This document shows, piece by piece, positions 5,365-31,297 of a DNA stretch of 42,539 nt; the first letter of the stretch is position 1, and each line of letters starts with the position of its first letter. The notes beneath the pieces are model-generated. The model worked only from the letters and a program-made list of their open reading frames with translations. It searched no databases and was not told the origin of the DNA. Origin of the DNA: Bacteroidales bacterium (GTDB lineage: Bacteria; Bacteroidota; Bacteroidia; Bacteroidales; UBA932); NCBI GenBank assembly GCA_017454265.1, contig JAFTDJ010000070.1:1-42539 (forward strand). The letters run 5' to 3'. The translations under genes and the position numbers were made by a program.

Positions 5365-5416
5365 AAAACTTTTCCCGAATTTAGGGTAATGACTTATTTG
5401 TTTGTCTATATTATGT

Positions 5417-9400: not shown

Positions 9401-9800
9401 TTATTACACCCAGCCTTGCGTGCAGGGAGGTACTTTCCGCACAGAGCACCTCGACCGCTGGACTCCTGAGACTCCCGACGGGCGTTTCCCGCGCCTGAGC
9501 TACGCTAGCGAGCTAAGCAAAAAGCACTCCAGCTTCTGGATGGCAGACGCTTCTTACTGCCGGCTTAAGAACTTGCAGCTCAGCTACACCTTCCCCAAGA
9601 AAATGCTGAAGAAGGCGAAAATAAGCAATCTCACTCTTTTCGCCAACGCAACCAACCTCTTCACCCTCACCAAATACTGGCAGGGTTACGATCCGGAGAA
9701 CATGTTTACCACCAGCGGCGACGGCGTACAGGCCGGAGCCACGGCAACCAACTACCCTCTGGTTTCTACCTATACCTTCGGAGTTGACATCAAATTCTGA
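6438..9800 (+). CDS. SusC/RagA-family TonB-dependent outer-membrane receptor with STN signalling domain
   Basis: A 1120-residue outer-membrane transporter. A signal peptide ends near AYAHA-QT (residue 26-27). An STN domain follows (about 28-105, with ISIQADRQPVSAVMKTIEQQ), which in this family contacts FecR and makes the receptor a sensor. Next come a carboxypeptidase-regulatory-like domain (about 117-190, GKVIDSEGLPLPGASVFVEG), a TonB-box-like segment (VVVVGYGTQKK, near 197) and the plug (TALQGSIPGV, IRIRGIGTF, VLIDGIEG, DAASSAIYGSRAANGVILITT). The rest is the 22-strand barrel, ending in an aromatic residue (DIKF), as is typical. It pairs with the SusD lipoprotein 5 nt downstream. The ligand is unknown. 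Confidence 0.97.
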   Translation: MRETNHLLKRLCLVLCGMLFFAYAHAQTRTISIQADRQPVSAVMKTIEQQSGYSFFYNDAAFDKNRTVSISAKDKDVLEVVAELFRGTDVQASVIDNNIVLSNVPKASSRPQAPDGAVRGKVIDSEGLPLPGASVFVEGTSVGTVTDNAGNFEISAREGNTLVVSFLGFSDARQRVGKAASGYVVELETDTEFLDDVVVVGYGTQKKVNLTGAVGAISSEVLENKPITQASTALQGSIPGVTVTTSGGGPGADTGNIRIRGIGTFGGSSAAPLVLIDGIEGSINSVDATQIDKISVLKDAASSAIYGSRAANGVILITTKRADKGKSTISYRGYVGWQTPTTTPDTVGPINYMILNREATENDGNVSIYTDDYIANYLKNNWLDPDNYPIVNWKQHVLNGNGLMHQHNLTLSASAGKIRTLTSLGYLDQNGIVKSADFKRYNFRNNMNIEINDKVGFRFDMSGSFGRRNYSPYQSGFFNFMNARDPLFLAQWSNGTYAPFTGGTVNSLPMMDEGVGGNVQADSYRLSGAMALTYKPWEWLTLEGTVAPRLTSSHTMNFVDLVTYYSDPYGTVSPIKNREYNSLTDSYSNTVYNNFLFTAKYHKLFARSHELTLLAGASYEDMDNRTLSAYRRDFAYPQYRTINAGADNEFKENGGAEYQWALVSFFGRVNYNYKERYLFEANVRYDGSSRFAAGRRWGLFPSFSAAWRLTEEPWMQSVKKTLNEFKIRASYGQLGNQNIGSDYYPTIQTLTISSISAAGIIYPIVGLNNLANTEITWETSEMYDVGIDATLLDKFNLTADWYYKTTYGILMQLDIPTTIGLTAPYQNAGTVLNVGWELGAGYHDRKGDWSWGVDANLSDVVNKIIDMKGTASGNLLRNEEGYAINSIYGLKCIGMARSQEQADEVNATCPQYGMETKPGDLIYEDIAGDVDENGNPVPDGKIDDKDRQIIGSTIPRYTFGATLSIGRKGFNLSAQFQGVGKLNAYLNGYYTQPCVQGGTFRTEHLDRWTPETPDGRFPRLSYASELSKKHSSFWMADASYCRLKNLQLSYTFPKKMLKKAKISNLTLFANATNLFTLTKYWQGYDPENMFTTSGDGVQAGATATNYPLVSTYTFGVDIKF

Positions 9801-9805
9801 CGACA

Positions 9806-11605
9806 ATGAAAAGAATCATATTACCACTTATAGCATTGTTGCTCGCCTGCAGCTGCGAAAAGGCGCTTGAGCGTTATCCCCTCAACGGCCCTTCTACGGG
9901 AACTTTCCCTGCCAGCGAAGAAGAGGCCCTTGCAGGAGTACTTGTGAGCTACAAGAACCTGTCCAACTCCAAGCAACAGTATTCTTCCTGGCCCTGGCGC
10001 TTCGTGGACAACCTTACCGACATAGGCACTACCCGTATAGGCCTCAGCAACTGGAACCTCTTCGTCACGTCCACCCTCACCCAGACTACCAGCGCTGCGA
10101 CCGCACTGTACAGCCGTATATACCGCACTGCAGGGCGTATCCATCTGGTACTCGACAATCTGGACAACATTAAAGACAAGATGTCGGAACAGACATATCT
10201 CCAGTTCAAGGCGGAACTGCTGTGTCTGCGCGCATATATCTACGACATGGGCTGCCAGTACTACGGCGACATCCCCTTCATCGACCACTGCCTGTCTTTG
10301 GACGACTATGCCTACCCTCGCATGCCCAAGGAGCAAGTGATAGACCGTATCCTGGAGGATATGGACGATGCTCTTCTGGAGGCGCTGCCGGTGCGATGGG
10401 AAAAGGCCACATGGGGCACCTGCCGTCTGGGCAGAGCTGCCGCCTACACTCTGAAGGCACGAATCTGTCTCAACTGGGGCCGCTTTGCAGATGCCGCAAA
10501 GTATTCTCGTAAGGCAATGGAACTTTCCGAGGGAGTGTACAAACTGGAGACCCTGGATTGCACCTATTACCCAAATGCCGCGACCGAAGGTGAGCCGTCC
10601 GCTTCCAATCTTCACGGCTTCAAAGGAGAGACGAGCGACGAGTGGATGTGGGCCATACAGTTCGACCGCCTGGCCGCTTCCAACGTGCATTCCATGATTT
10701 ACACCTACTCTTCCCGCGTAGCCAACGGAGCTGCCGGCTGCGGTCCGTCCCAGGCTCTCATGGACACCTTCCAGTGCACGGACGGCCTCTCTATTATCGA
10801 GTCGCCCCTTTATAACTGGCAAGACCCTTGGAATCACCGCGATCCTCGTCTTGACCTCTATTGCCTGAGGTCCGACACCCGCATCAACAATGTCCAGTAC
10901 TCTACCAGCCCCTCCGACAAGCAGGTACGTGACTACAATATCGATGCGATGGTCAACAACAACGATGTCAACGGCAATAAGAGCGAGTACGGTCCCAACG
11001 GCACAAAGGGCCCGGGCGGCTACCTGTGGCGCAAATATGCAGACAAGACGTACTACGGCGAGACCCTGACCGCAAGCTATGAGGATGAGCTGGACGTCTG
11101 CATCATGCGTTATGCCGAGCTTTTGCTCATCGATGCCGAAGCCAATATCGAAATGGACGGCGGCGACCTCAAGCGCGCGCAGAACGACATCAACCAGGTG
11201 CGCTCCCGCGTGAAAATGCCAAAAATCACCACCATGGACCGTGCCGGGCTGCGCAGCGCCCTGCGCTATGAGCGTACCGTGGAGCTCTGCGCAGAAGGAT
11301 TTCGCTGGTTCGATATCCGCCGCTGGAAGACTGCGAACGGCATTACCCTGGCAGAAAAGGTCATGAACGGTCCTCAGTACGCTCCGGCGTTCAACGGAGC
11401 GCGTCCCAACGCCAAGCCTACCATAGATGAGAGCTGGACGGTATCTTATAATACCTCAGACACCTGGGACGGCAAGGCGTTCAATCTCCGCGTGCTTCTG
11501 AACATGTATTACCAGACCGGAAAAGACGAGCTGTGGCCGTTGCCCGATGCAGAAATCCGCACCAATACTGCAATCGGACAGGAAAACCAGAACCCCGGAT
11601 ATTAA
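9806..11605 (+). CDS. SusD/RagB-family surface nutrient-binding lipoprotein
   Basis: A 599-residue lipoprotein that forms the lid of the SusC transporter. The signal peptide ends in a lipobox with Cys at residue 15 or 17 (ALLLACSC). The tetratricopeptide-like helical fold is indicated by RAYIYDMGCQYYGDIPFI, GRAAAYTLKARICLNWGRFADAAKYS and a C-terminal block with LRYERTVELCAEGFRWFDIRRW followed by LWPLPDAEI. It lies 5 nt after SusC, and the next gene starts 13 nt after its stop, consistent with one operon. The bound ligand cannot be inferred from sequence. Confidence 0.96.
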   Translation: MKRIILPLIALLLACSCEKALERYPLNGPSTGTFPASEEEALAGVLVSYKNLSNSKQQYSSWPWRFVDNLTDIGTTRIGLSNWNLFVTSTLTQTTSAATALYSRIYRTAGRIHLVLDNLDNIKDKMSEQTYLQFKAELLCLRAYIYDMGCQYYGDIPFIDHCLSLDDYAYPRMPKEQVIDRILEDMDDALLEALPVRWEKATWGTCRLGRAAAYTLKARICLNWGRFADAAKYSRKAMELSEGVYKLETLDCTYYPNAATEGEPSASNLHGFKGETSDEWMWAIQFDRLAASNVHSMIYTYSSRVANGAAGCGPSQALMDTFQCTDGLSIIESPLYNWQDPWNHRDPRLDLYCLRSDTRINNVQYSTSPSDKQVRDYNIDAMVNNNDVNGNKSEYGPNGTKGPGGYLWRKYADKTYYGETLTASYEDELDVCIMRYAELLLIDAEANIEMDGGDLKRAQNDINQVRSRVKMPKITTMDRAGLRSALRYERTVELCAEGFRWFDIRRWKTANGITLAEKVMNGPQYAPAFNGARPNAKPTIDESWTVSYNTSDTWDGKAFNLRVLLNMYYQTGKDELWPLPDAEIRTNTAIGQENQNPGY

Positions 11606-11618
11606 TGGAGACTACGTT

Positions 11619-13550
11619 ATGAAACGAATACTGACAACATTATCCGCAGCCACTGTACTGCTAGCCGGCTGCAAAGACTATAGCTACGAGACCTGGACTC
11701 CAGACACCAGCCTTCATACTGCCGGCGACGTGAGCCTGATGGTGACTTTCGAGAATCTCCAGACCAAAGTGTTCATGGACGATCGCGGCCACGGCACTTG
11801 GGAGCGCGGCGACCAGATTGCTGTTGCGTGCTCCGACGGCAGCTTTGAGATATTCAACCTGGACGGCACCGGAGATACAAAGAGGGCCGTTTTCAGCGGC
11901 AGCCTTCCCGCCGGGAAGCAGCTGGGCGGCGTTGTGGTTTATCCCCCTTCTGCAGCAAAGTCCATTAGCGGAGACAATCTTACCTTGACCCTTTCCGAGG
12001 TTCAACAGGCCAGCGTTTCCTCCGCTTACCCAGGCGTGCTTGTAGGTAAAGTGGGAAGCGACTGGCAGGTTGACCTTAAGCAAGTGCTCGGCTTTATTAA
12101 CGTGCGCTTTGACAACTTCCCCGTCGAGGCCTCCAGCATCCTCCTGGATGCAGGCGCGGCTTTGAGCGGTACCTTCACTGCCAACGTAGATGACCTGCTC
12201 GCTGCCGGGCTCAAACCATCAGACGCGCAGACTGTCCAGGGCCTGTCTCTTGCAGTTAAAAATGCCTCAAAAAGCATTTATGCCATGGTACCCGTGCCGG
12301 TTGCCGATTACAGCACCATCCAGGCTATCTTCCTCGACAACAAAGGCAAAGAGGTTATCTCCCAGCCACTTAGCGACTATAGTGTGGGCATTTCCCGCGC
12401 TGAGCTGCACGACATGACCGTTACCTGCGCCGAGGCTCCCGCGCCTCCGTGCCGCATCAACCTCGGCGGCGAGCGCATTACCATGGATGCCGTGGCAGAG
12501 GGCATATTCGAGGGCGAATTCGAAGTGCCTGCAACCACCAGTTTCACCATAGAACTTGACGGAGCACCATTTGGCTTTGCAACCAGTTCCGGCGCTGGCG
12601 GATTGGGCACCATAAGTGCAGACAACAGCGCCCTGCCCGTCACCAAGGTCCGCGCCTCCAAGAGCAAGCGTACATACTATGTGAAGCGCGCCCAGGGCAC
12701 GATGGCCTCTACCGACCTGGCAGACAACCCCTTTACAGTTGACCTCGAAAGCCCCGGCAAGATGCACGTACTGGTGGACGCCACCGACCCGGGTGCGCCC
12801 AAGTACAAGATTAACGTGGTGCAGACTCCCGACGCCTCCGTCATTTTCCATGAGGACTTCGACCTTTGCGTGTTCGGCGGCGACTATCTTGCCCCGGCCG
12901 ACGGAAAAGGCTGTAAGGCAGATTCTTACGACGGCTACATGCCGGCCACCGGAACCGTGACACAGAACAACGGCAGCTTCCCATTCGACTACCCGAACGA
13001 TGTTACTTCAGCCGCCGAGGCAAAGCCTGAGTACATGCAGGCATACGGGCTGCAGGATTGGGAATTCGCTTATGCGGCCGAGCGTCCGGGAGGCATGCAG
13101 CTTTGCGCCGGAGCCATTGCCGGCTACATGCTTACTCCTGCGTTTGCCACCGTACAGGGCAGCACCGACGCGGTGATAGAGATAGAGATGGCCCGCTTCT
13201 CCACCTCTTCTACAGACCCTGTGTACATCAAGTTGCAGGGCGGCGGCAGCTTCAGCTCCGGCACCATTACCCGCGACGCTTACACGGCGGCAAGCCAGGC
13301 AGGAGCCAGCTACCCCGAGGTTACCGGCGAGCTGAGCGCTTATGAGGACGGGGGCGCTACTGCAGTACTTGCAGACAACGACTTCTTCCCCCACTCCATC
13401 AACAACGCCGACATAGACAAGCCGGTCACTCATGTACGTCTGGAGGCAAGCGGCATCACCTCTGCCACCAAGCTCATGATAGACTGCCCCAAGGGGGCCA
13501 AAAACGCCCCGCGTATCTTCGTATTCGACATTAAAGTGACCAGGAAATGA
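11619..13550 (+). CDS. Fimbrillin-like lipoprotein in the SusE/SusF position
   Basis: A 643-residue lipoprotein (lipobox LLAGC, Cys18). The ATG at 11619 was chosen because it begins the signal peptide; an in-frame start 72 nt upstream lies inside SusD. The N-terminal part has the fimbrillin-like signature (QTKVFMDDRGHGTWERGDQIAV, about residues 47-68) that recurs as TKVAV...GKVTW..GDAIAVYN in three downstream genes. The second half differs from those genes. It has a beta-rich region opening with VIFHEDFDLCVFGGDYLAP, which resembles carbohydrate-binding jelly-roll domains of Bacteroidetes surface proteins, but I cannot name it. It overlaps the next gene by ATGA (13547-13550), implying translational coupling with the first MBL protein. 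The likely role is surface ligand binding. Confidence 0.8.
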   Translation: MKRILTTLSAATVLLAGCKDYSYETWTPDTSLHTAGDVSLMVTFENLQTKVFMDDRGHGTWERGDQIAVACSDGSFEIFNLDGTGDTKRAVFSGSLPAGKQLGGVVVYPPSAAKSISGDNLTLTLSEVQQASVSSAYPGVLVGKVGSDWQVDLKQVLGFINVRFDNFPVEASSILLDAGAALSGTFTANVDDLLAAGLKPSDAQTVQGLSLAVKNASKSIYAMVPVPVADYSTIQAIFLDNKGKEVISQPLSDYSVGISRAELHDMTVTCAEAPAPPCRINLGGERITMDAVAEGIFEGEFEVPATTSFTIELDGAPFGFATSSGAGGLGTISADNSALPVTKVRASKSKRTYYVKRAQGTMASTDLADNPFTVDLESPGKMHVLVDATDPGAPKYKINVVQTPDASVIFHEDFDLCVFGGDYLAPADGKGCKADSYDGYMPATGTVTQNNGSFPFDYPNDVTSAAEAKPEYMQAYGLQDWEFAYAAERPGGMQLCAGAIAGYMLTPAFATVQGSTDAVIEIEMARFSTSSTDPVYIKLQGGGSFSSGTITRDAYTAASQAGASYPEVTGELSAYEDGGATAVLADNDFFPHSINNADIDKPVTHVRLEASGITSATKLMIDCPKGAKNAPRIFVFDIKVTRK

Positions 13551-14731
13551 GCCTGCTGCTGAGTCTGCTTACAGCGGCTGCTATAGTCGTAGGATCCCCC
13601 CTGCCTGCCTGGCAGGAGGGGTACCTGGACATTCATGCCATCAACTCCGGCAGGGGGGAGTGCACTTTCTTCATCCTGCCCGACGGCACTACGCTGCTTG
13701 TAGATGCGGGAGAGTCGTACGGACGGCCAAACCATAAATACGCTGTCGTACCTCCGCGCCCAGACGCCCAGACGCCGGCTTATATGGTGTATGCCAAGTA
13801 CTTACGCCGTTTTCTCCCGGCCCGTTCCAAGGGAACGCTGGACTATGTGCTTATAACCCACTATCATTCAGACCATTTTGGCACGGAGATAGAGAGCGTG
13901 CGCAAGCATCCTGCCGGGGGATATGCACTCACCGGCATATCCGCCCTCTACGAAGAAGTGCCGGCCAGCAAGCTGATAGACCGTTCGTATCCCGAATACG
14001 AGAGCGTCTGGCTGCCGTCCAGCTCAAAGGCCACTTTCTATCAGGAATTCGTGCGCTATGCCGTAGAACAGCGCGGCCTGCTGGCGGAGTCTTTCCGCGT
14101 GGGCGACGCAGGGCAGATACGCCTCCTGCACCGTCCGCACAGGTACCGCAACTTCCGCATATTAAATTATGCCGGAAGCGGATTTGTGTGGGACGGAGGA
14201 CAGGTGGTGGACGCTTACGCCTCTCCGGAAGACCGCAAAGAGAACGGCATGTCATGCTGTTTCCTGCTGAGTTATGGAGACTTTGACTACTATACCGGAG
14301 GTGATGCCGGCGGCAACGGTCCTGTTGCGCTTCCCGTGGCCAGAGCTGTCGGGCGCCCCATAGAGGCAATGAAGGCGGACCATCATTTCTCCTACCACTG
14401 CATGAAAGATGAGACCATGCGCATTTACCGGCCCACGGTGGTGGTGACGCAGGGGTTCACAGTGCGGGACATACAACCAGATTATACCGTGGTGGACCGC
14501 CTGCTACGCAGCGACGAAGTGTACCCGGGCCCCAAATATTACTATTTTACCAACATGGGAGAAAGCCAGCTGCGGGAGCACCGGGATGTGTATTCACGGG
14601 CGGCCGGTGTAAACGGTCACGTGGTGATACGTGTGATGCCGGGCGGGCATGAGTATTACGTAATCATGCTTGACGATACAGACTTTGAATATCGAGTTAA
14701 ATCAATAGACGGACCTTTCAAATGCAAGTAA
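13547..14731 (+). CDS. Exported metallo-beta-lactamase-fold hydrolase (MBL-1)
   Basis: A 394-residue secreted MBL-fold protein. A hydrophobic N-terminus (MSLLLSLLTAAAIVVG) suggests a signal peptide without lipobox. The mature part opens with LPAWQEGYLDIHAINSGRGE and then PDGTTLLVDAGE, like the start of ComEC/Rec2-type MBL domains. The metal-binding HxHxDH motif is HYHSDH (residues 105-110). A second acidic site lies in GGDAGG (Asp253), and a further HH pair in MKADHH (His279-His280). The C-terminus ends GPFKCK, a motif shared with the two other MBL proteins here. The substrate is unknown: ComEC-like domains act on nucleic acid, but other MBL enzymes split phosphodiesters, esters or amides. 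It is coupled to the genes on both sides by overlaps of 4 and 10 nt. Confidence 0.87.
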   Translation: MSLLLSLLTAAAIVVGSPLPAWQEGYLDIHAINSGRGECTFFILPDGTTLLVDAGESYGRPNHKYAVVPPRPDAQTPAYMVYAKYLRRFLPARSKGTLDYVLITHYHSDHFGTEIESVRKHPAGGYALTGISALYEEVPASKLIDRSYPEYESVWLPSSSKATFYQEFVRYAVEQRGLLAESFRVGDAGQIRLLHRPHRYRNFRILNYAGSGFVWDGGQVVDAYASPEDRKENGMSCCFLLSYGDFDYYTGGDAGGNGPVALPVARAVGRPIEAMKADHHFSYHCMKDETMRIYRPTVVVTQGFTVRDIQPDYTVVDRLLRSDEVYPGPKYYYFTNMGESQLREHRDVYSRAAGVNGHVVIRVMPGGHEYYVIMLDDTDFEYRVKSIDGPFKCK

Positions 14732-16002
14732 AACACTATCTGACAATTATGTCTGCCTTGCTCTGCCTGGCCTTATCATGTAACGAGAAGCCGGATGACG
14801 GAGGCAAGGGGAGTAAAGACACCGCCAACGCCCCGGACGAGGCTGCGGTGGGTGAAGTATTGCCGCCCTGGGCTGAGGGATGGCTGGACATTCACGCAAT
14901 CAGTACAGGTCGCGGCGAGTGCACTTTCTTCATCATGCCGGACGGCACTTCAATGGTTATAGACGCCGGTGAGGTCGTTACATCCACTACCTCGCCTGTT
15001 TCCGTCACCCAGAGGCCGAATTCTGATACGCGTGCCTATTTTACGCAGGCAAAATACATGAAGCATTTCCTGGAGGCTACAGGGCACGATTACCTGGATT
15101 ACGCGGTGATGAGTCACTTCCACATAGACCATTTCGGCACTCCCAAGGGCAAGGGCTTCATCGTGAGCAGCGAGGGCTACACCCAGACGGGAATGATGGC
15201 AATCTACACGACGCTTCCTTACAAAAAGTTGTTGGACCGCGCCTGGAGCGCAGATGATTCTGAATACGATTTCATAGACAAGAGCGCATCTAATTACAGC
15301 ACAGGAACCGTAGGGGATTATACCGAGTTTGTGAAATATGCAACCACCAAGAAGGGCCTTGTGATGGAACGCTTCAGTGCCGGCACCGACGAGCAGCTCA
15401 CGCTCCAATACAATAAGGTAAAGTATCCGACGTTCAAGATCTTCAACTGGGCGGTAAATGGCGAATACTGGAACGGCACTACCATGATAGACGCCTATGG
15501 CAGTGCTATACCGGCAGAAAACGGTACTTCCTGCATTTCCCTTATCAGCTACGGCAAGTTTGATTATTACACTGCCGGCGATGCTGGAGGCAACACCAAA
15601 ATGGCCAACCCTGTTGCAAAGGCAATTGGAAGGCCCATAGAGGCCATGAAAGCCGACCATCACATGTCTGTAAACTGCATGACTCCCACCCAGATGGGCA
15701 TACTCAAGCCCAAGGTGATAGTGACGCAGAGCTTTGCCCGCCGCACAGACCAGCCCATGCTGGAAACGGTAGAAGCATTGCTCAACGGCACATACTACAA
15801 TACAGGAGTATCACTCTATTTTACCAATATAGACCCGGTTATTTCTACCCCGAATGCTAACCTCTACGACAAGACCCATTACAACGGCCACGTGGTAATA
15901 CGCGTTGCTCCCGGAGGAGACAGGTTCTGGGTCTTCCAGCTAGACGACACCAACAACCTGTACAAGGTCAAGAGTGTGGAGGGACCCTTTGAATGCGAAT
16001 AA
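14722..16002 (+). CDS. Metallo-beta-lactamase-fold lipoprotein (MBL-2)
   Basis: A 426-residue lipoprotein (lipobox LALSC, Cys20) followed by a charged Gly/Lys/Asp-rich linker that would hold the enzyme off the membrane. The MBL domain begins at LPPWAEGWLDIHAISTGRGE, continues with PDGTSMVIDAGE and carries HFHIDH at residues 132-137. AGDAGG and MKADHH follow at the same relative positions as in MBL-1, and the protein ends GPFECE. Strong similarity throughout shows it is a duplicate of the upstream gene, but with a lipid anchor in place of a plain signal peptide. It overlaps MBL-1 by 10 nt; 28 nt separate its stop from the small peptide gene. The substrate is unknown. Confidence 0.87.
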   Translation: MQVKHYLTIMSALLCLALSCNEKPDDGGKGSKDTANAPDEAAVGEVLPPWAEGWLDIHAISTGRGECTFFIMPDGTSMVIDAGEVVTSTTSPVSVTQRPNSDTRAYFTQAKYMKHFLEATGHDYLDYAVMSHFHIDHFGTPKGKGFIVSSEGYTQTGMMAIYTTLPYKKLLDRAWSADDSEYDFIDKSASNYSTGTVGDYTEFVKYATTKKGLVMERFSAGTDEQLTLQYNKVKYPTFKIFNWAVNGEYWNGTTMIDAYGSAIPAENGTSCISLISYGKFDYYTAGDAGGNTKMANPVAKAIGRPIEAMKADHHMSVNCMTPTQMGILKPKVIVTQSFARRTDQPMLETVEALLNGTYYNTGVSLYFTNIDPVISTPNANLYDKTHYNGHVVIRVAPGGDRFWVFQLDDTNNLYKVKSVEGPFECE

Positions 16003-16166: not shown

Positions 16167-17918
16167 ATGAAAAGAATCCTGTTTGCAATTATCTGCGTAG
16201 CGGTGGCAGCCACCGCTTGCAACAAAGAAGCTGTTGAGCTTTCTGTACAGAAAGCCGACACTCTCAGTGTTTTTGCTTCCCTGCCGCAGACCAAAGTGGC
16301 GGTAGATAACGGTAAGGTCACTTGGACCGCAGGTGACGCTATTGCCGTCTACAACACCGATGGCGCCAAGTTCACCCTTACCCTGAGCGAGGGTGCGGGC
16401 ACCAATTACGGCAAGTTCTCCGGAGATTTTACCGGCACGCTCGCAACCGACGTTGCCGTGTATCCCGCGGCGTGGGCCGGTGAGGTCAAGGGTACCGTGG
16501 TCATTCCCAAGTACGTGGAACGTACCGACGCCGTGACCCCCGTCATGGCTTCTGCGCTCAGCGTAGACGGCGCCAATGTAGAAGCAACCCAGTTCCATCA
16601 CGTAATGGCTATCGTTGAGTTCACTCTCTCCGATATTCCCGCGTATGCCTGCGCGGTGAAGGTTTTCTCCAAGACCGGAGCCCAACTCAACGGAACCTAT
16701 ACTGTCAATGAAAGTCTTAACGGCGTGGAATGCGAAGTTGGCAACTCAGAGACCGGCACCAACGACCGTGTGCTGTACTTCCCCTACAAGACCGGATACG
16801 GCGCCGAGTCTGCGGTGAAGTTCTACGTCCCCGTGGCTCCCTTCGACTATACCGACCTGGCGCTCCGCGTACTCGACGGTGACGAAGACATCATAGAGGG
16901 TACCGCGCTCAAATGCAAGCCCGCCTCCATCAAGGCCGGCGATTATGTTGCAATGCCCGCGTTCAGTGTGCGCAAGCAGGTAGGTACCGCCCGCGACAAA
17001 TTCATCAAGGTGGAAGGCGTCAAGTGGGCCAAGGGCAACCTGCGCGTGAAGCAGGAAGAAAGCTACCAGGACGGCTGGCAGCCCGGATTCAACATCTTTG
17101 AGCACCAGTGGCAGACTGCGTACGGCGAGCGTGACGGCATTACAGTTACGGAAGTGCTTACTACAGATGTAGCACGCGATTCAAAGTTATTCGACCTCTT
17201 CAACTGGGGCGGACTCGGCCGCAGCTGCCAGTTCAACAACTCCGGCTTCATAACTCCCACTACTGCCAAGTTCGATATCTCCGGGCGTGTATTCTCTGCC
17301 CGCGAAGGAGACAAGGAGACTCTTGACGCCGCCGAACTTGAGGGCGAAGCCAGATTCCAGTTCTGGGATGTGTTCAGCGGATATAACGGCGGTGAAGCAG
17401 ATCCTGCTACCGGCTCCGGCAACCCTCCCATCTACGGAGATGTGGCTTTCTGGGCCAGCAAGGGACAGTATCGTATGCCTACTTCTTCAGAGGCTGTGAA
17501 ACTTCGTACCAATAATTCTGCCGCTACCGGGCAGGCCGGATGGTATACAACTCCGGGCGGAGACATGATTTACGGAGCCCTGCTCACATCTACGCCCAGC
17601 TGGGCCGAGCCGTCTATGAATACTACTGCAGTAGAATTTACCGACTCCGACCTGGAGAGCGGACTTTTCCTGCCCAAAACGGGCCGCAGGGCTTCTTCAG
17701 AAACTCACTCAAAGATCCGCTATTTCAACAACCAGTGCGCTTACTGGTCTTCCACCTTTGGCTCTTTGGCCTCCGGATATGAGACTTGCGCAACCATCGT
17801 TGGCTGGAAAAAGGATTTCAGCGGCGGCATCTACGGCTACACCACAGCCTGGAACGGCAATAACATCGGCGACGTAAAGGCCGGCAACCCCATCCGTCCC
17901 GTATATATTGGAGAATAA
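16167..17918 (+). CDS. Fimbrillin-like / FISUMP-like surface lipoprotein 1
   Basis: A 583-residue lipoprotein (lipobox ATAC, Cys18). The N-terminal half (about 35-270) has the fimbrillin-like signature LPQTKVAVDNGKVTW and GDAIAVYN, and then alternating beta-rich sequence. The C-terminal half (from about residue 285, VKWAKGNLRVK) resembles the Fibrobacter succinogenes major paralogous (FISUMP) domain: FNWGGLGR, DVAFWASKGQYRMPTSSE, ESGLFLPKTGRR, AYWSSTFG and a terminal GNPIRPVYIGE. Such domains are thought to have a C-type-lectin-like fold. Two further genes downstream (18070 and 19870) have the same architecture. It probably acts at the cell surface in binding or adhesion; the ligand is unknown. 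Confidence 0.82.
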   Translation: MKRILFAIICVAVAATACNKEAVELSVQKADTLSVFASLPQTKVAVDNGKVTWTAGDAIAVYNTDGAKFTLTLSEGAGTNYGKFSGDFTGTLATDVAVYPAAWAGEVKGTVVIPKYVERTDAVTPVMASALSVDGANVEATQFHHVMAIVEFTLSDIPAYACAVKVFSKTGAQLNGTYTVNESLNGVECEVGNSETGTNDRVLYFPYKTGYGAESAVKFYVPVAPFDYTDLALRVLDGDEDIIEGTALKCKPASIKAGDYVAMPAFSVRKQVGTARDKFIKVEGVKWAKGNLRVKQEESYQDGWQPGFNIFEHQWQTAYGERDGITVTEVLTTDVARDSKLFDLFNWGGLGRSCQFNNSGFITPTTAKFDISGRVFSAREGDKETLDAAELEGEARFQFWDVFSGYNGGEADPATGSGNPPIYGDVAFWASKGQYRMPTSSEAVKLRTNNSAATGQAGWYTTPGGDMIYGALLTSTPSWAEPSMNTTAVEFTDSDLESGLFLPKTGRRASSETHSKIRYFNNQCAYWSSTFGSLASGYETCATIVGWKKDFSGGIYGYTTAWNGNNIGDVKAGNPIRPVYIGE

Positions 17919-18050: not shown

Positions 18051-18069
18051 CGATTAAATGAGCACGATT

Positions 18070-19857
18070 ATGAAAAAGATTCTGATTACACTTGTTTCTT
18101 CGCTTCTTGTACTGGCTTCCTGCACCGAGAAGCCCGAGATTACCCTTGAGCCCGCCACCCTCCCCCGCACCATTACCCTCACCGCCTCCCTGCCCCAAAC
18201 CAAGGTGGCAGTGAATACGGATGAAGGAGCCGATAAAGGTAAAGTTACATGGTCGGCAGGGGACGCTATAGCGGTGTACAATACTGAAGGGGCAAAGTAT
18301 CCCTTGACGATTGTAAGTGGCGTAGGAGAGGATAACGCTACTTTCTCCGGCGATTTTACCGGCACATTAAGCGGCTTTGCCATTTATCCCGCTGATTATG
18401 CTGCTTCTGCTACTTCTATTCAGATATTAGATAAGCAGGAGTGGGCTTCCGGTAAGGTTCCTGCAATTATGGCGGCTAAAATAGAAGGTGAAAATATCGG
18501 AGTGAGTACGGGGACTGCAACGTCAACAGCAACCCTGTACTTTAAGGCTTTGATGCCTGTATTCGAGTTTACTCTGGAGAATGTGCCTGCGTATGCAAGG
18601 GCAATCAAACTGTCGTCTGCAAGCGGCGCAGCTCTTCAAGGCACACACTCAATACAGGAAAACTGCACACTGGCTGCTATCAGTTCGGGGTCCTCGACCT
18701 CCCTCACCATCGGCTTCCCCTATAAACAGGCTTGTGGGTTGTCAGGGCATGACAGTTCGATTACTTTCTATGTTCCTATGCCTTCTTATGCCTACACCGA
18801 CCTTACCCTCGATGTGCTCGACGGCGATGAAGATTCCATTCTTGCTTCCCCTCAGACAATTCCCTCTGCAACAGGAGCCTATTTCGCTAATGGCGCTAAC
18901 GCCTATGTACGTATTCCTACCCCACTTAGTATCAGCACTAAGGTTGACTCTGAAAGGGATAATTATATCAAAGTTGCAGGCATTAAATGGGCAAAAGGCA
19001 ATTTAAGTTTTAATGAGACGACAGGAACGACAGGCGCAGGTTTTCAGATGTATTGGAGTCTGTATGATGAGCAGTGGAAGTACTATAATTATGATGCTCC
19101 TATTTATAATGGTGGAACCGCATACAATGGGACGGCTAAAGATACCAGATACGATAATACTGCAAACATTTTTGAACATTTTAATTGGGGCGGACTAGGA
19201 AAAAACTCACGATTAAAGGATAGTGGTAATTATTTAACAGCTACTACTGCTAATTTTTCCATTGTTAAGAAGATTTTTTCCGATGCTACCATGTCTTCTG
19301 AAGCTGGAGAAGAAGAGCGTTTTTCTAATCCGGGATGGACAGAGGATATTACCCTTATGGGAGATTTGGCTTATTGGGCTAGTAAAGGCAAATACCGTTT
19401 ACCATCATCATCGGAAATAACCGAATTATATGTAAACGATGGTAATAAGAATGGCAAAAAAGTCAAAGTTCAATTTGGTCATATTATTAAAAATGGCTAT
19501 AATATATGGGGCGTTTTATACACCACTATTCCAACATGGGATAGTACAGCGGATAAGATAAGTACAGATGATATAGAATTAACAGATGCAGATTTAGCAA
19601 GTGGAGTTTTTTTACCAAAATGCGGTCGAAGAGCTAATACATCGCAAACTGTTATTCAGCAACGAGTTCAAGGCACTTATTGGACCGGGAATTATGGTGC
19701 GTTAACGAATAATGGGACTGATTATTCGAATTGCCCAAGAATTCTTCATATAAATGGAACAGTCATTGCGTATGGTTTTACTTTAGGCGCAACCGCATAT
19801 ACGAATAATGCTGGTTATGCCATCCGCCCCGTATATATACCTGAAGCAGAACGTTAA
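18070..19857 (+). CDS. Fimbrillin-like / FISUMP-like surface lipoprotein 2 (mosaic base composition)
   Basis: A 595-residue lipoprotein (lipobox LASC, Cys18). The start at 18070 gives MKKILITLVSS like its paralogues; an in-frame ATG at 18058 would add four residues. The fimbrillin-like half shows LPQTKVAVNTDEGADKGKVTW and GDAIAVYN. The FISUMP-like half has IKWAKGNLSFN, FNWGGLGKNS, DLAYWASKGKYRLPSSSE, LASGVFLPKCGRR and AIRPVYIPEAER at the end. From about 18950 to the stop the DNA is markedly AT-rich: I count 16 G/C in the 60 bases 19441-19500, against 41 in 60 at 21001-21060 in the paralogue. The reading frame and domain order are intact, so the C-terminal domain may have come by recombination. 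It lies 12 nt upstream of the fused paralogue. Confidence 0.82.
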   Translation: MKKILITLVSSLLVLASCTEKPEITLEPATLPRTITLTASLPQTKVAVNTDEGADKGKVTWSAGDAIAVYNTEGAKYPLTIVSGVGEDNATFSGDFTGTLSGFAIYPADYAASATSIQILDKQEWASGKVPAIMAAKIEGENIGVSTGTATSTATLYFKALMPVFEFTLENVPAYARAIKLSSASGAALQGTHSIQENCTLAAISSGSSTSLTIGFPYKQACGLSGHDSSITFYVPMPSYAYTDLTLDVLDGDEDSILASPQTIPSATGAYFANGANAYVRIPTPLSISTKVDSERDNYIKVAGIKWAKGNLSFNETTGTTGAGFQMYWSLYDEQWKYYNYDAPIYNGGTAYNGTAKDTRYDNTANIFEHFNWGGLGKNSRLKDSGNYLTATTANFSIVKKIFSDATMSSEAGEEERFSNPGWTEDITLMGDLAYWASKGKYRLPSSSEITELYVNDGNKNGKKVKVQFGHIIKNGYNIWGVLYTTIPTWDSTADKISTDDIELTDADLASGVFLPKCGRRANTSQTVIQQRVQGTYWTGNYGALTNNGTDYSNCPRILHINGTVIAYGFTLGATAYTNNAGYAIRPVYIPEAER

Positions 19858-19869
19858 ACCACCCTCTTT

Positions 19870-22767
19870 ATGCAACACCCCGCAACCATACTGTTGATTT
19901 CCATAGCTTCCCTTGCACTGGCAGCGTGCAGCACCGAGCCGGTGCAAGAGCAAGTACAGGCAGAAGAACAGGCGCGTACGCTGGAACTCACGGCGTACGT
20001 GCCCGCCCCTGCGTCCAAGGTCTCCGTAGCCCCAAGCGGCAAGGTTACCTGGAGCAGCGGCGACGAGATTGCAGTGTACAATACCTCCGGAAAGAAGTTC
20101 CGCGCCACCCTAAGCAGCGGCGCCGGCACCTCCGAGGGGCATTTCACCTGCACCTTCACAGGAGATCCCGGTACGGTTGCGGTCTATCCCTACAGTCTTG
20201 CAGGTGAAGAACCGGGCACGGTGACCTTGCCCTGGATGAGCGAGCGCAGCGACGATACTCCCGCCCTCATGGCCTCTGAATTCAGCGTCTCCGGCACATC
20301 CGTAGAGCCCCTGATGTTCAAGCACATAGCTCCTGTCATAGACTTCACCCTGCACGACATCCCCGCCTACGCACGCGCCCTGGTACTGCGGGCCGGCGGA
20401 GGGCGTATCTGCGGCGACTTTTCATTCAACACATCTACCCTCGGTCCCGTGCAGACGGAGAACGTGGAATCTTCCAGGATAATCACCTTTCCCTGCGGGG
20501 AGGGTTACGGCACTGACTTGCATTTCCGCCTCGCCCTTCCCGCCGGGGATTATTCCAAGCTGTCGATTGGCCTTATAGACGGCGACGAGTCCCCCATCGA
20601 GGGGCTCGAGGCCCTGAGCATCAGCTCAGACTGCCTGCAGTTGTCTGCAAAGGATTATCTGGTAATGCCGGCAGTTGACGTACGAAGCAAATGCGCCCGC
20701 CGTGCAGACCTGCGCAAGGTAGAGGGCATCTACTGGGCGGCCGGCAACCTGATTGCAGAGGCCGGGGGCAAGACCTCAGACGGCTTCCAGACCGGCTGGC
20801 GCATTGCCGACGAGCAGTACGAGTACCTTGGCTGCTTAACAGTAGGCACCAGCACCACTGCAACTTACACCCAGACCGCCGCCTCGTTCGACCGCTTCAA
20901 CTGGGGCGGGCTGGCCGGTGATGCCTGGCTGCCGGACGCGGGCTATATGCTGCCTACGACCGCCAAGTACAGCATCTCCGGCCGCATCTTCTCCGTCTCA
21001 GAGGGCGACTCAGAGGCATTGGATGCGGCGCAGGTGAGCGGTGACGCCCGTTTTGCCGCGCCTGTCGGCGGCTCCCTCGCCACCGGCTCCACACTCCACG
21101 GAGACGTGGCTTTCTGGGCCAGCAGGGGGCAGTACCGTATGCCGGAGGCGGCGGAGATCGTAACCCTGCGGGCCGGCGAGACCACAACGGCGGCCAGCGG
21201 AAAGGCCGGCTACGTATCCGTGGGCGGCAACCGCATCTACGGCATACTGCTCACCAGCACCCCTTCCTGGGAAGAATCTACGCTCAATACTACGGCTGCG
21301 GCGCTTACGGCCGCAGACCTCGAGAGCGGACTGTTCCTGCCCAAGGCGGGCCGCGGCCGCTTTGTAGACGGTACCGCCACCATCAACTATGTAAACGGCC
21401 AGGGCTATTACCGCAGCGGCACTTTCTCCGGCCTTAACCTTACAGACTACCCCAACTGCGACCATTCAACCACGATACTGGGCTTCCGTGCCGGAAACAA
21501 ATGCGACTACGGTTACAGCATACACCTCAACTCGGACGTCTCCTGGGGCGTGGGGCATGTACAGAAGTGCCTGCCTGTACGCCCCGTGCTTGCGAGCGCG
21601 GGCAGCGCGCCTGTCCCCGACCCCCTGCCTCAGCCGTCTGCAACATCGCTGCCGGCCTGGAGCGAGGGCTACCTGGACATACACTCCATCAACTCCGGTC
21701 GCGGCGAGTGTACGCTCGTCATAATGCCCGACGGCACTTCTATGATGATTGATGCCGGCGAGTATTACACCACTTCCGAAACTGCCGTGGAGCAGAAGCC
21801 GTCGGCCGCTGTGCGCCCGTTCAAGGTCTATACTGCATACGCAAAATACTTCCTGTCTGCTACCGGACACGACTTTTTGGACTACTTCCTGCTCACGCAC
21901 TACCACATAGACCATATGGGGCAGGTGCGCGGCAGTTACGGCACTTCCGGCAACGGCTACACCCGCAGCGGCGTGATGGCCGTGTACGACGACCTTCCAA
22001 TACTCAAGCTGGTAGACCGATGCGGGCCGGACAACACTCCTGGAACCTCAGATTACAGCGAAGCCGTGTACGAGGAGTTCCGCAAGTTTGCGGAATACCG
22101 CCGCAGCCACGACGGGATGGCGTGGTACCAGATCAACCTCAACGCCTCCGGCAACTATGCCAAGCAATTTGCGCCAAAGTACAACCCTTCCTGCGGCTGT
22201 ACCGTGTACAACGTCAGCGGCAACGGCAAATACTGGAACGGCAGCGGCTTTACCAGCATGAGCGTGAGTGCAGAGAATGCTTGCTGCGCAAGCGTGCTGA
22301 TTTCTTACGGAGACTTCGACTACCTGAATACCGGAGATGTGGGCACACAGTCCGGAATGCTGCAGGAGATTGCATCCGGTTTGGGTAAGGGTGTAGATGC
22401 TATGAAGGCCGGGCATCATATGTACTACAACACTTTCAACGATAGTTGGACAGCAGAGATTCTGCAGCCTCAGGTGACCATTGCGCAAATCTTCGATTCA
22501 GACAAGCCCGGTGACCCGTCCTTCGGGCTGTACCGCCAGTATGGAGACGTCTTCTGCACCAATTTGCATCCCGGCAGGCTGGACAACAGCGTGGAGCTCA
22601 AGGCCGGTACTCCGGTTTCCAACCTTGGCAGCAAGGTGCGCGACTATGGCGGCCACTTCGTCATCCGCGTATCTCCCGGCGGCACTCAGTTCTACGTGTA
22701 CAAACTCCGCGACACCGACTTCTCCTACACCGTAGAAGCCACCTACGGGCCGTATACCTGCAATTAA
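19870..22767 (+). CDS. Fused fimbrillin-like / FISUMP-like / metallo-beta-lactamase lipoprotein (MBL-3)
   Basis: A 965-residue lipoprotein (lipobox LAAC, Cys20) with three parts. The fimbrillin-like part has APASKVSVAPSGKVTWSSGD and EIAVYN. The FISUMP-like part has IYWAAGNLIAE, FNWGGLAGDAWLPDAGYML, DVAFWASRGQYRMPEAAE, ESGLFLPKAGRG and LPVRPV. A Pro/Ala/Ser linker near residues 575-595 joins these to a full MBL domain that starts LPAWSEGYLDIHSINSGRGE. The MBL domain carries HYHIDH at 677-682 and then MKAGHH (one residue different from MKADHH of the others), and ends GPYTCN. The fusion joins, in one chain, modules that are separate in MBL-1, MBL-2 and lipoproteins 1 and 2, which argues that they work on the same target at the cell surface. 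No small peptide precedes it: only 12 nt separate it from the previous gene. Confidence 0.88.
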   Translation: MQHPATILLISIASLALAACSTEPVQEQVQAEEQARTLELTAYVPAPASKVSVAPSGKVTWSSGDEIAVYNTSGKKFRATLSSGAGTSEGHFTCTFTGDPGTVAVYPYSLAGEEPGTVTLPWMSERSDDTPALMASEFSVSGTSVEPLMFKHIAPVIDFTLHDIPAYARALVLRAGGGRICGDFSFNTSTLGPVQTENVESSRIITFPCGEGYGTDLHFRLALPAGDYSKLSIGLIDGDESPIEGLEALSISSDCLQLSAKDYLVMPAVDVRSKCARRADLRKVEGIYWAAGNLIAEAGGKTSDGFQTGWRIADEQYEYLGCLTVGTSTTATYTQTAASFDRFNWGGLAGDAWLPDAGYMLPTTAKYSISGRIFSVSEGDSEALDAAQVSGDARFAAPVGGSLATGSTLHGDVAFWASRGQYRMPEAAEIVTLRAGETTTAASGKAGYVSVGGNRIYGILLTSTPSWEESTLNTTAAALTAADLESGLFLPKAGRGRFVDGTATINYVNGQGYYRSGTFSGLNLTDYPNCDHSTTILGFRAGNKCDYGYSIHLNSDVSWGVGHVQKCLPVRPVLASAGSAPVPDPLPQPSATSLPAWSEGYLDIHSINSGRGECTLVIMPDGTSMMIDAGEYYTTSETAVEQKPSAAVRPFKVYTAYAKYFLSATGHDFLDYFLLTHYHIDHMGQVRGSYGTSGNGYTRSGVMAVYDDLPILKLVDRCGPDNTPGTSDYSEAVYEEFRKFAEYRRSHDGMAWYQINLNASGNYAKQFAPKYNPSCGCTVYNVSGNGKYWNGSGFTSMSVSAENACCASVLISYGDFDYLNTGDVGTQSGMLQEIASGLGKGVDAMKAGHHMYYNTFNDSWTAEILQPQVTIAQIFDSDKPGDPSFGLYRQYGDVFCTNLHPGRLDNSVELKAGTPVSNLGSKVRDYGGHFVIRVSPGGTQFYVYKLRDTDFSYTVEATYGPYTCN

Positions 22768-22788
22768 CCTTCCTTCTTGGATGCACAT

Positions 22789-24888
22789 ATGAGACGATTT
22801 ATTACTTTTTTTGCATCCCTGTTGCTTTGTGCGGTGGTTCTTGCCGGCCAAAATCCGCCAGTCCTTGCTCCTGATGCTCTGCGCTTCGTTCCCAGGGGGC
22901 AGCAGGCACTGAGCGAGTGGGAGTTTTCGCAGGACGGATGCTCCTGGCAGAGCGTCAACGTGCCCCACTGCTGGAATGCCGCCGACGGGCACAGTGCCTC
23001 GTACCGGCGCGGCCAGGGCATTTACCGCACAGACATCAGTATACGCAATGCTGCAGCACGGTCGTACCTTATCTTCGAGGGTGCCGCCCAGGCCGCAAAA
23101 GTGTATGTAAATGACGCCTTAGCGTGTGAGCACAAGGGTGGCTACACAGCCTTCGCCGTGAATCTGAGCAACCGTGTGCATAAGGGCCGCAACCCGGTAC
23201 AGGTCCTTTGCGACAATACAGAAGACCTTGAGCTTATACCGGTAAGCTCCGACTTCAACAAAAACGGCGGCCTGCATAACCCGGTATGGCTCTTCCAGCC
23301 TGCTGGCGTGCACTTCAGTCCCATGCACTACGGCCTGTACCGCATGCATGTAAGCCAGACTTCGGTCAGCGATACGCTTGCTTGCGCCCGCGTGCAGGCG
23401 TTCGTGGTGGGCCGGGCGCCCGTGACTCTAAGGGTCCGGGATGCTGCAGGACGCATTGTCCACCGGGACACCCGCACTGCGAATGGGGAATACGACGTCT
23501 CTTTCAGCCTGGCCTCGCCGCACTTGTGGCAGGGCCTGGACGATCCTTACCTGTACACGGTGGAGCTCTGTGTCGGCACTGACCGCGCCGTGGCTGAGAT
23601 TGGCTTCCGCTGGTTTTCCGTCAGCCGCGACGGCGGATTTTTCCTCAACGGCCGGAGTTATCCTCTGCGGGGCGTCTGCATGCACCAGGACCTGGACGGC
23701 AAGGCCTCTGCACTCTCGTACGAGGATTACGATGCCGATTATGCCACCGTGCGCGAGCTGGGATGCAACTTCCTGCGACTCGCCCATTATCCGCACAACG
23801 ACTACGCCTTCCGCCTCTGTGACCACCTCGGAATAGTGGTGCAGACGGAGATTCCCTGGGTGAACGTGTGCGGCAGGCGCGCTGCTGAGGCCTATTTCCA
23901 AAATATCCACAGCCAGATGCGAGAGATGATAACGAACCTCTACAACCATCCGTCCATTGTATTCTGGGGAATGTGGAACGAGCTTGACCGCTGGGGTAAT
24001 AAAGAAGAGCTCCAGGGGCCGCTGGACGAGGCTCGCGTGGTATCCGAGACAGCCCGCCTGTACCGCTACGCCAAGTCGTTGGACGCGCAGCGGCTTGTGG
24101 GACTGACCGACGATTCCGTCTTTAAACGGGACGGTTACACGGGGCTCCGGGCCGACTTCTACTCCGAGAACCGCTACTACGGCTGGTACTACAACTACGG
24201 CGACTTCTCCGGCATCACGGGGGCGATGGAGAAGGTGCGAAGCATGATGGGCCCGGCCAATATTTCCGAGTACGGGGTAGGCGTGAACCCCTTCTGTCAT
24301 ACCTGGAACGAGGAAGATATTAGCCGCTATCCCGACGACGCCCGGCACGTTGAGGAGTACGGCAACCTGTTCCACGAGTCGCATGCCGCGCAGATAGCCC
24401 GAATGCCATGGCTCAATTTTACCTCGGTATGGGTGCTGTTCGACTTTCCCGTAGCCAGCCGCATGGAGGGCTACATGGACAGTTCCGACGGCATAACTTA
24501 TACCGAGAACCCCGACCGCTTGTACATAAACGACAAGGGGCTCGTAACGCGCGACCGCAAGACCAGCAAAGACACTTTCTACTTGTATAAGGCATGGTGG
24601 AACCGCTCCGAAGAGACGGTCTATATTGCAGGCCGCAGGCTCCTCAAGCGCCCGGCCGGCCGCGAGTTTACGCTTACTGTGTATTCCAACGCCCCGTCGC
24701 TCCGGCTGCTACAGGACGGAGTTGCGGTAGGCGCGCTCAACTCAAGCGGCGAACCCACGGGAGTTGTATGGAAGTTCCACGGCCTCAGCATTCCGCAGGG
24801 CGGCTCCGAGTTCACCGTAGTGTCCCCCTCAGGCCGCAGCGACTCAGTCCGGTTTGAGGCTATAGTTTTTGCGCGAGGTCGAATTTAA
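22789..24888 (+). CDS. Glycoside hydrolase family 2 (beta-galactosidase-like)
   Basis: A 699-residue exported glycosidase. The ATG at 22789 gives a signal peptide (MRRFITFFASLLLCAVVLAG); an in-frame TTG lies four codons upstream. A sugar-binding jelly-roll domain is followed by an immunoglobulin-like domain and a TIM barrel, with GFRWFSVSRDGGFFLNGRSY, LRLAHYPHND, LGIVVQTEIPWVN and HPSIVFWGMWNELD. The predicted acid/base is Glu398 in WNE and the nucleophile is Glu494 in NISEYG. Family 2 contains galactosidases, mannosidases and glucuronidases, so the exact sugar is uncertain. It is the last gene of the sigma/FecR locus, 21 nt after the fused MBL lipoprotein, and the only recognisable carbohydrate enzyme in it. 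Confidence 0.93.
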   Translation: MRRFITFFASLLLCAVVLAGQNPPVLAPDALRFVPRGQQALSEWEFSQDGCSWQSVNVPHCWNAADGHSASYRRGQGIYRTDISIRNAAARSYLIFEGAAQAAKVYVNDALACEHKGGYTAFAVNLSNRVHKGRNPVQVLCDNTEDLELIPVSSDFNKNGGLHNPVWLFQPAGVHFSPMHYGLYRMHVSQTSVSDTLACARVQAFVVGRAPVTLRVRDAAGRIVHRDTRTANGEYDVSFSLASPHLWQGLDDPYLYTVELCVGTDRAVAEIGFRWFSVSRDGGFFLNGRSYPLRGVCMHQDLDGKASALSYEDYDADYATVRELGCNFLRLAHYPHNDYAFRLCDHLGIVVQTEIPWVNVCGRRAAEAYFQNIHSQMREMITNLYNHPSIVFWGMWNELDRWGNKEELQGPLDEARVVSETARLYRYAKSLDAQRLVGLTDDSVFKRDGYTGLRADFYSENRYYGWYYNYGDFSGITGAMEKVRSMMGPANISEYGVGVNPFCHTWNEEDISRYPDDARHVEEYGNLFHESHAAQIARMPWLNFTSVWVLFDFPVASRMEGYMDSSDGITYTENPDRLYINDKGLVTRDRKTSKDTFYLYKAWWNRSEETVYIAGRRLLKRPAGREFTLTVYSNAPSLRLLQDGVAVGALNSSGEPTGVVWKFHGLSIPQGGSEFTVVSPSGRSDSVRFEAIVFARGRI

Positions 24889-31293: not shown

Positions 31294-31297
31294 GAAG

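Follow-up and report, generated by a model that had tools for sequence, protein, structure and literature searches.

A lipoprotein–metallo-β-lactamase fusion conserved in a SusCD gene run of Bacteroidales, with a possible role in phosphodiester cleavage at the cell surface

The DNA analysed here (the window) is a stretch of 42,539 nucleotides, contig C53 of a 1.94-Mb draft genome of a Bacteroidales bacterium (75.65% complete), and the gene in question lies at 19870–22767 on its plus strand, in a run of genes headed by SusC and SusD. It is a single frame from ATG to stop that specifies 965 amino acids (aa) with no internal stops, and is a real fusion of a lipoprotein signal, a fimbrillin-like domain, a second module of about 300 aa and a metallo-β-lactamase (MBL) domain, much as an earlier model reading of the letters alone (the sequence-only reading) had described it. 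Hidden Markov models (HMMs) made from the window's own copies of the modules set the borders at residues 1–285, 286–580 and about 566–965, and the following features can be placed within the gene.

19870..22767, plus strand: the fusion, 965 aa (single frame, BLASTP, own-copy HMMs)
19870..20724, plus strand: signal, Cys20 and fimbrillin-like domain, residues 1–285 (HMM 466 bits)
20725..21609, plus strand: FISUMP-like module, residues 286–580 (own-copy HMM 495 bits; FISUMP likeness weak)
21640..22764, plus strand: MBL domain, residues ~591–965 (HMM 627 bits; family profile against Pce, E=3e-13)
21898..21915, plus strand: metal motif HYHIDH, residues 677–682 (family alignment, HMM)
22327..22344, plus strand: NTGDVG with conserved Asp (Asp in 95/95 family rows)
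22405..22419, plus strand: KAGHH, HH motif (both His in 95/95 family rows)

The modules also occur separately in the same plus-strand run, in genes starting at 13547 and 14722 (the stand-alone hydrolases MBL-1 and MBL-2) and at 16167 and 18058 (the lipoproteins LP1 and LP2); the start previously given for the last of these, 18070, is an alternative inner ATG. By BLASTP, fusion residues 1–285 are 41% identical to LP1 and 34% to LP2, residues 286–585 are 43% and 37% identical to the same two proteins, and the MBL part is 38% identical to MBL-2 and 34% to MBL-1, the weakest of these matches having an E-value of 3e-33. Cys20 is invariant across 15 aligned rows, and a loose lipobox pattern is present in 17/17 other fused copies.

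The fusion is conserved and under purifying selection. A whole-protein search of 101 relatives gave five further full-length copies, and a separate search of 400 genomes of the same genus, with inspection of the frames, gave at least 18 full-length, single-frame copies (window included) in at least 17 genomes, counts that are lower bounds since two candidates were scored per genome; the join is clearly not unique to the window. Three more copies are partial and lie at contig edges (G234, G248 and a second one in G192), and that of G349 is split into two adjacent frames with the break inside the FISUMP-like module (L174:3529-6271), reflecting either a broken gene or a sequencing error. Over five pairs of fusion copies, the ratio of nonsynonymous to synonymous substitution rates (dN/dS) was 0.14–0.23 for the whole protein, 0.18–0.29 for the N-terminal part and 0.08–0.15 for the MBL part, figures that are rough because synonymous distances are high (0.6–1.6). 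A chance or assembly join is thus incompatible with the many full-length copies and the low dN/dS. The named records carrying the fusion are metagenome-assembled genomes (MAGs), namely RGIG9677 (yak omasum), RGIG9266 (water deer rumen), RUG12750, RUG12551 and the more distant RUG784, where RUG denotes rumen genomes.

The three-module form arose at least twice. A tree of 96 MBL domains puts 20 of the 21 three-module rows (three of which are partial or split copies) into a single group (100/100) and places the fused G162 copy with unfused MBLs from G162 and G032 (100/100). These well-supported branches force at least two changes; a long-branch warning applies to parts of the tree, including the join of a six-row subgroup within the fused clade. 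In G032 the modules are separate, alternating genes, and the MBL genes have their own starts; a 1025-aa fused frame considered there was rejected, as a stop and a new lipoprotein start lie between the modules, and G032 represents the split form. In G047 and G048, fimbrillin-like plus MBL proteins that lack the middle module adjoin the sigma gene. The sequence-only reading had argued from one fusion beside unfused copies that lipoproteins and hydrolases serve one purpose, and this argument is strengthened by the two or more origins and the fimbrillin-like–MBL proteins: repeated joining of a lipoprotein module to a hydrolase is better support for a shared task than a single fusion would be.

The second fusion type, with the fimbrillin-like part joined directly to the MBL, occurs beside the sigma gene at L029:5770-7884 and L033:3607-5847, a place taken in the window by a flavin adenine dinucleotide (FAD) oxidoreductase of family PF12831. 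At L065:7346-11113 and L099:8813-12547, proteins of about 1250 aa carry a C-terminal MBL behind a different N-terminal part of about 870 aa.

The gene run of the window shows a tandem susC-susD by Pfam, FecR before SusC, and a divergent sigma factor gene of the extracytoplasmic function (ECF) type. The fusion starts 12 bases after the end of the preceding gene, and a gene for a family 2 glycoside hydrolase (GH2) follows 9 bases past it, provided that the listed TTG start is correct (an ATG lies 12 bases further on).

3429..4802, plus strand: PF12831 FAD oxidoreductase (380 bits), a frequent neighbour of the MBL family in the genus
4803..5336, minus strand: ECF sigma factor (Pfam Sigma70_r2/r4_2)
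5402..6433, plus strand: FecR anti-sigma (Pfam FecR, FecR_C)
6438..9800, plus strand: SusC-like TonB-dependent transporter (Pfam Plug, STN, CarbopepD_reg_2)
9806..11605, plus strand: SusD-like lipoprotein (Pfam SusD_RagB)
11547..13550, plus strand: LP0 lipoprotein, with an MKR start inside the listed reading frame; N-terminal part of its orthologs fimbrillin-like
13547..14731, plus strand: MBL-1, stand-alone, with an N-terminal signal-like stretch (Lactamase_B 27.1 bits, cut-off 22.7; HYHSDH)
14722..16002, plus strand: MBL-2, stand-alone, with a lipoprotein-type signal (45% identical to MBL-1; HFHIDH motif)
16167..17918, plus strand: LP1, fimbrillin-like plus FISUMP-like lipoprotein (aligns with fusion residues 8–573, 41–43%)
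18058..19857, plus strand: LP2, fimbrillin-like plus FISUMP-like lipoprotein (aligns with fusion residues 7–538, 34–37%)
22777..24888, plus strand: GH2 glycoside hydrolase, next gene in the run (Pfam Glyco_hydro_2_C/N)

LP0 reached no Pfam family above cut-off, and its orthologs in L028, L030, L031 and L034 match the fimbrillin-like HMM. MBL-2 taken alone did not match Lactamase_B at E ≤ 1. Constant company of SusCD and sigma/FecR, which the sequence-only reading had proposed as a check, is borne out for SusCD as far as contigs allow, SusC or SusD being present in 15 of 18 fused stretches (those of G048, G303 and one G304 copy end at contig edges), but not for the regulators: sigma and FecR accompany seven of the 18 (window, G047, G027, G023, G199, G335 and G145) and are unmatched in four where sequence upstream of SusC is in hand (G192, G291, G205 and one G304 copy), the remaining seven stretches not covering that sequence. 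Many of the genomes are draft MAGs, and absent neighbours may be contig effects.

The first module appears to be fimbrillin-like. Compared as profiles with the Mfa_like_1 proteins of relatives, with the signal removed, it gave P=2.1e-7 over 122 columns, and ten column shuffles gave 0.45–0.85; the signal peptide was excluded as signal stretches alone gave P-values down to 9e-6 between unrelated families, and the score obtained with it (2.8e-14) was not used because the shared signal inflates it. None of 15 members matched PF13149 directly at E ≤ 1, and one of the 15 matched NCBIfam fim_Mfa1_fam (E=0.12). The likeness to Mfa_like_1 fimbrillins lies outside the signal, and the window module differs from them in being fused to other modules. 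For the second module (286–580) no family model was reached, and none of 15 members matched FISUMP (TIGR02145) directly at E ≤ 1. Its profile score against FISUMP was 24.0 (P=0.021), a narrow margin over the maximum of 22.9 from 60 column shuffles, and a few motifs are in register with FISUMP proteins; it can be called FISUMP-like only weakly. Among the names originally given to the three modules, that of the MBL is confirmed by sequence, fimbrillin-like by profile comparison only, and FISUMP-like stays doubtful.

That the C-terminal part is an MBL of the Pce/ComEC branch with complete metal motifs holds at the level of sequence. A family profile of 31 rows searched against the PDB placed Pce/CbpE, the pneumococcal teichoic acid phosphorylcholine esterase, first (1wra 3e-13; 12qj; 2bib) and ComEC second (9ic4 3e-8, 30bt 1e-7), the next MBL appearing only at 1.4e-3. 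In an alignment of 95 rows (92 of 93 non-redundant MBL rows plus three from the window), H92, D96, H97, D238, H264 and H265 are present in all 95 and H94 in 94, while N218 is an invariant Asn (95/95) that may occupy the motif III position, which is His in Pce and Asn in ComEC. Pfam Lactamase_B was reached at E ≤ 0.01 by 69 of the 95 members, the fusion's own MBL domain scoring under the cut-off (E=0.0075). A beta-lactamase identity was rejected, with scores far under the cut-offs, as was the anti-phage family 6A-MBL (NF058524), for which the fusion and MBL-1 scored 13.6 and 13.9 bits against the 220 needed.

Pce/CbpE is the nearest solved sequence to the fusion's MBL family and, in the alignment with 1wra and 2bib, shares the HxHxDH, GD and HH motifs. 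It is likewise a modular enzyme, in which choline-binding repeats follow the MBL, whereas the extra fimbrillin-like and FISUMP-like modules of the fusion precede it and the gene lies within a SusCD run. For ComEC, one report (PMC8579336) describes phosphodiesterase activity of the MBL domain, Pce as the nearest homologue of known structure, an Asn replacing the motif III His, and substitution of one motif II His by Asp; the fusion's MBL family differs from ComEC in keeping HxHxDH (94/95 rows). ComEC is also a membrane DNA channel, and no part of that channel was seen in the fusion gene.

Because of this kinship and of the genes that neighbour the MBL family, we infer, tentatively and at somewhat less than even confidence, that the fusion is a surface-tethered phosphodiesterase feeding a SusCD importer. 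The protein would sit on the outer surface, its N-terminal modules forming a stalk and docking part, and the MBL domain would cut phosphodiester bonds in a phosphate-bearing polymer or lipid, candidate targets being teichoic-acid-like material and glycerophospho- or head-group phosphates. Cleavage would take place close to the SusCD importer, which would take up the product, and MBL-1 and MBL-2, at the surface or in the periplasm, would attack substrates of the same class. For sister lineages, use of the product would be completed by a glycerophosphodiester phosphodiesterase (GDPD), a GlpT-like transporter and a glycerol-1-phosphate-dehydrogenase-like (G1PDH-like) enzyme. The fusion itself would fix one copy of the enzyme to a lipoprotein that otherwise stands beside it; that the hydrolase is thereby held near a bound ligand, as the sequence-only reading suggested, is a possibility for which the FISUMP name offers weak evidence. 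Where the sequence-only reading had left the substrate entirely open, the class would now be narrowed to the phosphoester type. A broader picture, which taken as a whole is possible but appreciably less probable, is that of an unnamed, Pce-like family of surface or periplasmic phosphodiesterases found in Bacteroidota and several other phyla, which in Bacteroidota would often work with SusCD in harvesting the teichoic acids, glycero-phospholipids and phosphonolipids of other organisms, and in rumen-type species would repeatedly have been joined covalently to a substrate-docking lipoprotein.

The evidence from neighbouring genes comes from a wider genome scan in which the best 80 loci were listed and 72 had a usable MBL frame; the other eight were left out with no MBL frame kept, several having been replaced by an overlapping antisense frame. 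Neighbour counts mix orthologous loci that are not independent, and the gene names rest on similarity to a small number of annotated representatives. Within 6 kb of the MBL, the 72 listed loci carry SusC (32), SusD (29), a PF01676/PF01663-type metalloenzyme (14), a calcineurin-type phosphoesterase (12), a PafA-like protein (11), PbfA (8), PF12831 (7) and GDPD (6). GDPD occurs beside the MBL at about four times expectation (6 observed, 1.5 expected, P=0.005, scaled to 72 loci), the density having been taken from a set of 38 of the 72 genomes that deliberately contained all six GDPD loci; the unscaled 38-genome figure (0.81 expected, P=2e-4) is biased by that choice and the scaled one is therefore used. 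Some listed loci pair the MBL with GDPD, and L082 of Bacteroides oleiciplenus reads SusC-SusD-MBL-GDPD-GlpT-like. Within the genus, G260, G304 (C73) and G349 have the fusion (split in G349), a PF12831 gene, an MBL, and G1PDH-like and GlpT-like genes in one row. The fusion of G162, which has a separate origin, is directly preceded by GDPD and directly followed by a PF12831 protein, and a G1PDH-like/GlpT-like pair follows about 9 kb downstream on the same strand. The mere presence of a GlpT-like gene is weak evidence, and only a position beside MBL genes was counted. The window's genome has such a pair as well, stand-alone on C16 (L229, G000:C16:104000-119000), with a PF12831 gene about 8 kb ahead of the pair.

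Seven Flavobacteriaceae-type loci (L070, L074, L077, L080, L083, L087 and L097) show the order SusC-SusD-PafA-like-MBL-PbfA-phosphatase-metalloenzyme, with PhnX-like and TIGR03364-type genes nearby. Most of these family names were checked on L080 only, where PbfA, PhnX-like and TIGR03364 were above cut-offs and the PafA-like match was weak (43.6 bits against a cut-off of 650). Two studies (PMC8154272, PMC10590968) give (R)-1-hydroxy-2-aminoethylphosphonate as the substrate of PbfA and describe oxidation of N-methyl-aminoethylphosphonate by FAD enzymes that recur in such clusters. The seven loci are likely to be a phosphonate-harvesting cluster. Phosphonate was rejected as the window's substrate, PbfA being above cut-off in none of the 400 genus genomes, and is kept as a clue to the chemistry. 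The phosphonatase TIGR01422 also had no match at E ≤ 1e-20 in the 17 fusion genomes, a result of little weight as the controls of that search were silent too.

Several observations weigh against a surface phosphodiesterase, beginning with the lack of any above-cut-off PbfA in the 400 genus genomes and with the flavobacterial MBLs being only about 30% identical to the fusion's. Neither SusC nor SusD lies within 6 kb of the MBL in 37 of the 72 listed loci and 12 of 43 genus stretches, part of which is explained by contig or flank ends. In the window, the MBLs themselves are the only phosphatase or phosphodiesterase candidates of the gene run: the next co-directional gene is GH2 rather than a phospho-enzyme, and a calcineurin-type phosphoesterase (39612–40748) is 17 kb from the fusion on the other strand. 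The G1PDH-like/GlpT-like pairs of G260, G304 and G349 count once because they are 99–100% identical, an opposite-strand gene separates the G162 fusion from its pair, G1PDH-like genes occur in 17/17 fusion genomes but mostly away from the fusion, and both kinds of protein score under their curated cut-offs, the window's genome having nine GlpT-type family matches with none above. Finally, the commonest enzyme partner in the genus, the PF12831 FAD oxidoreductase (20 of 43 stretches), goes unexplained, and GH27, sulfatase, UxuA and rhamnosidase genes are present as well.

These last points are the strength of a different account, that of a polysaccharide utilisation locus whose unusual accessory hydrolase, the MBL, cleaves a lactone or ester that the PF12831 enzyme produces as plant or microbial glycans are broken down. 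The 20 of 43 stretches with PF12831 within 6 kb of the MBL compare with 42 such genes in six whole genomes (14.4 Mb), though orthologous loci are among the 43, some of which were selected because they carry the fusion; GH2 adjoins the fusion, and GH27, sulfatase, UxuA, SASA and rhamnosidase genes lie in or near MBL loci. The account is nevertheless unlikely, given the sequence kinship of the MBL to Pce and ComEC, the occurrence of PF12831 near the MBL in only seven of the 72 listed loci (six of them Bacteroidales/Bacteroidia MAGs), and the restriction of the PDB matches of the window's copy at 38176–39594 to its FAD-binding end.

It is less probable still that the N-terminal modules serve only as surface anchor and spacer, with no part in binding, and that adjacent genes became fused by neutral change. 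Fimbrillin-like parts do precede several different C-termini in these loci and the FISUMP likeness is weak, but the same modules have been fused at least twice separately and the N-terminal dN/dS given above is low over all five pairs. An extracellular nuclease, degrading surface DNA or RNA as the C-terminal domain of ComEC does for import of the fragments by SusCD, is quite improbable, for although ComEC is the second nearest solved relative and N218, if rightly placed, matches its motif III Asn, the MBL is closer to Pce and no nucleotide or nucleoside genes were found among the annotated neighbour representatives, which make up only a fraction of all neighbours.

The sequence-only reading knew of no described Bacteroidetes system with this make-up. 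The nearest described kind found here is the phosphate utilisation system (PUS) of Flavobacterium (PMC8115612), in which PusCD complexes are placed with phosphomonoesterases, phosphodiesterases, phosphonate enzymes and lipoproteins. The window locus is close in kind: SusCD is common to both, as is the substrate class if the fusion is indeed a phosphodiesterase, and the company of SusCD with phosphatases or phosphodiesterases recurs in the flavobacterial and some other MBL loci. The window differs in its MBL family, fimbrillin-like lipoproteins, fusion and sigma/FecR pair, and the word 'lactamase' has 0 occurrences in the text of that paper; the locus is not classed as a PUS member. A narrow search of the open-access literature for SusCD or SusD with MBL, fimbrillin, phosphonate, teichoic acid or phosphodiesterase returned only what, by title, are general papers on genomes or enzymes.

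The usual interpretation of SusCD systems is that they import sugars. If the fusion is a surface phosphodiesterase, phosphodiester-linked material would give Bacteroidales of the gut and rumen a dedicated way, at their surface, of exploiting the walls or membranes of neighbouring organisms, served by an enzyme family that currently carries no such annotation. With fused and split versions next to each other, the connection of lipoprotein and hydrolase can be tested directly.

Near-identical sequences were noted across several genomes counted as different species. Beside the fusion, G260, G304 and G349 (L169, L171 and L174; also L170 and L176) have near-identical G1PDH-like and GlpT-like proteins, and the MBL rows of G260 and G349 are identical, as are those of G304 (C72) and G248, which points to either recent transfer or shared MAG contamination. 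In the window, a second SusC-SusD pair occupies 25072–32749, headed by a Tricorn/S41-type peptidase with beta-propeller repeats, and PF12831 FAD oxidoreductases flank the region at 3429–4802 and 38176–39594. The window has an rpoC gene close to the locus, as do G199, G145, G047, G048 and G192, that of G048 being on the SusCD contig, separate from the contig of the fusion.

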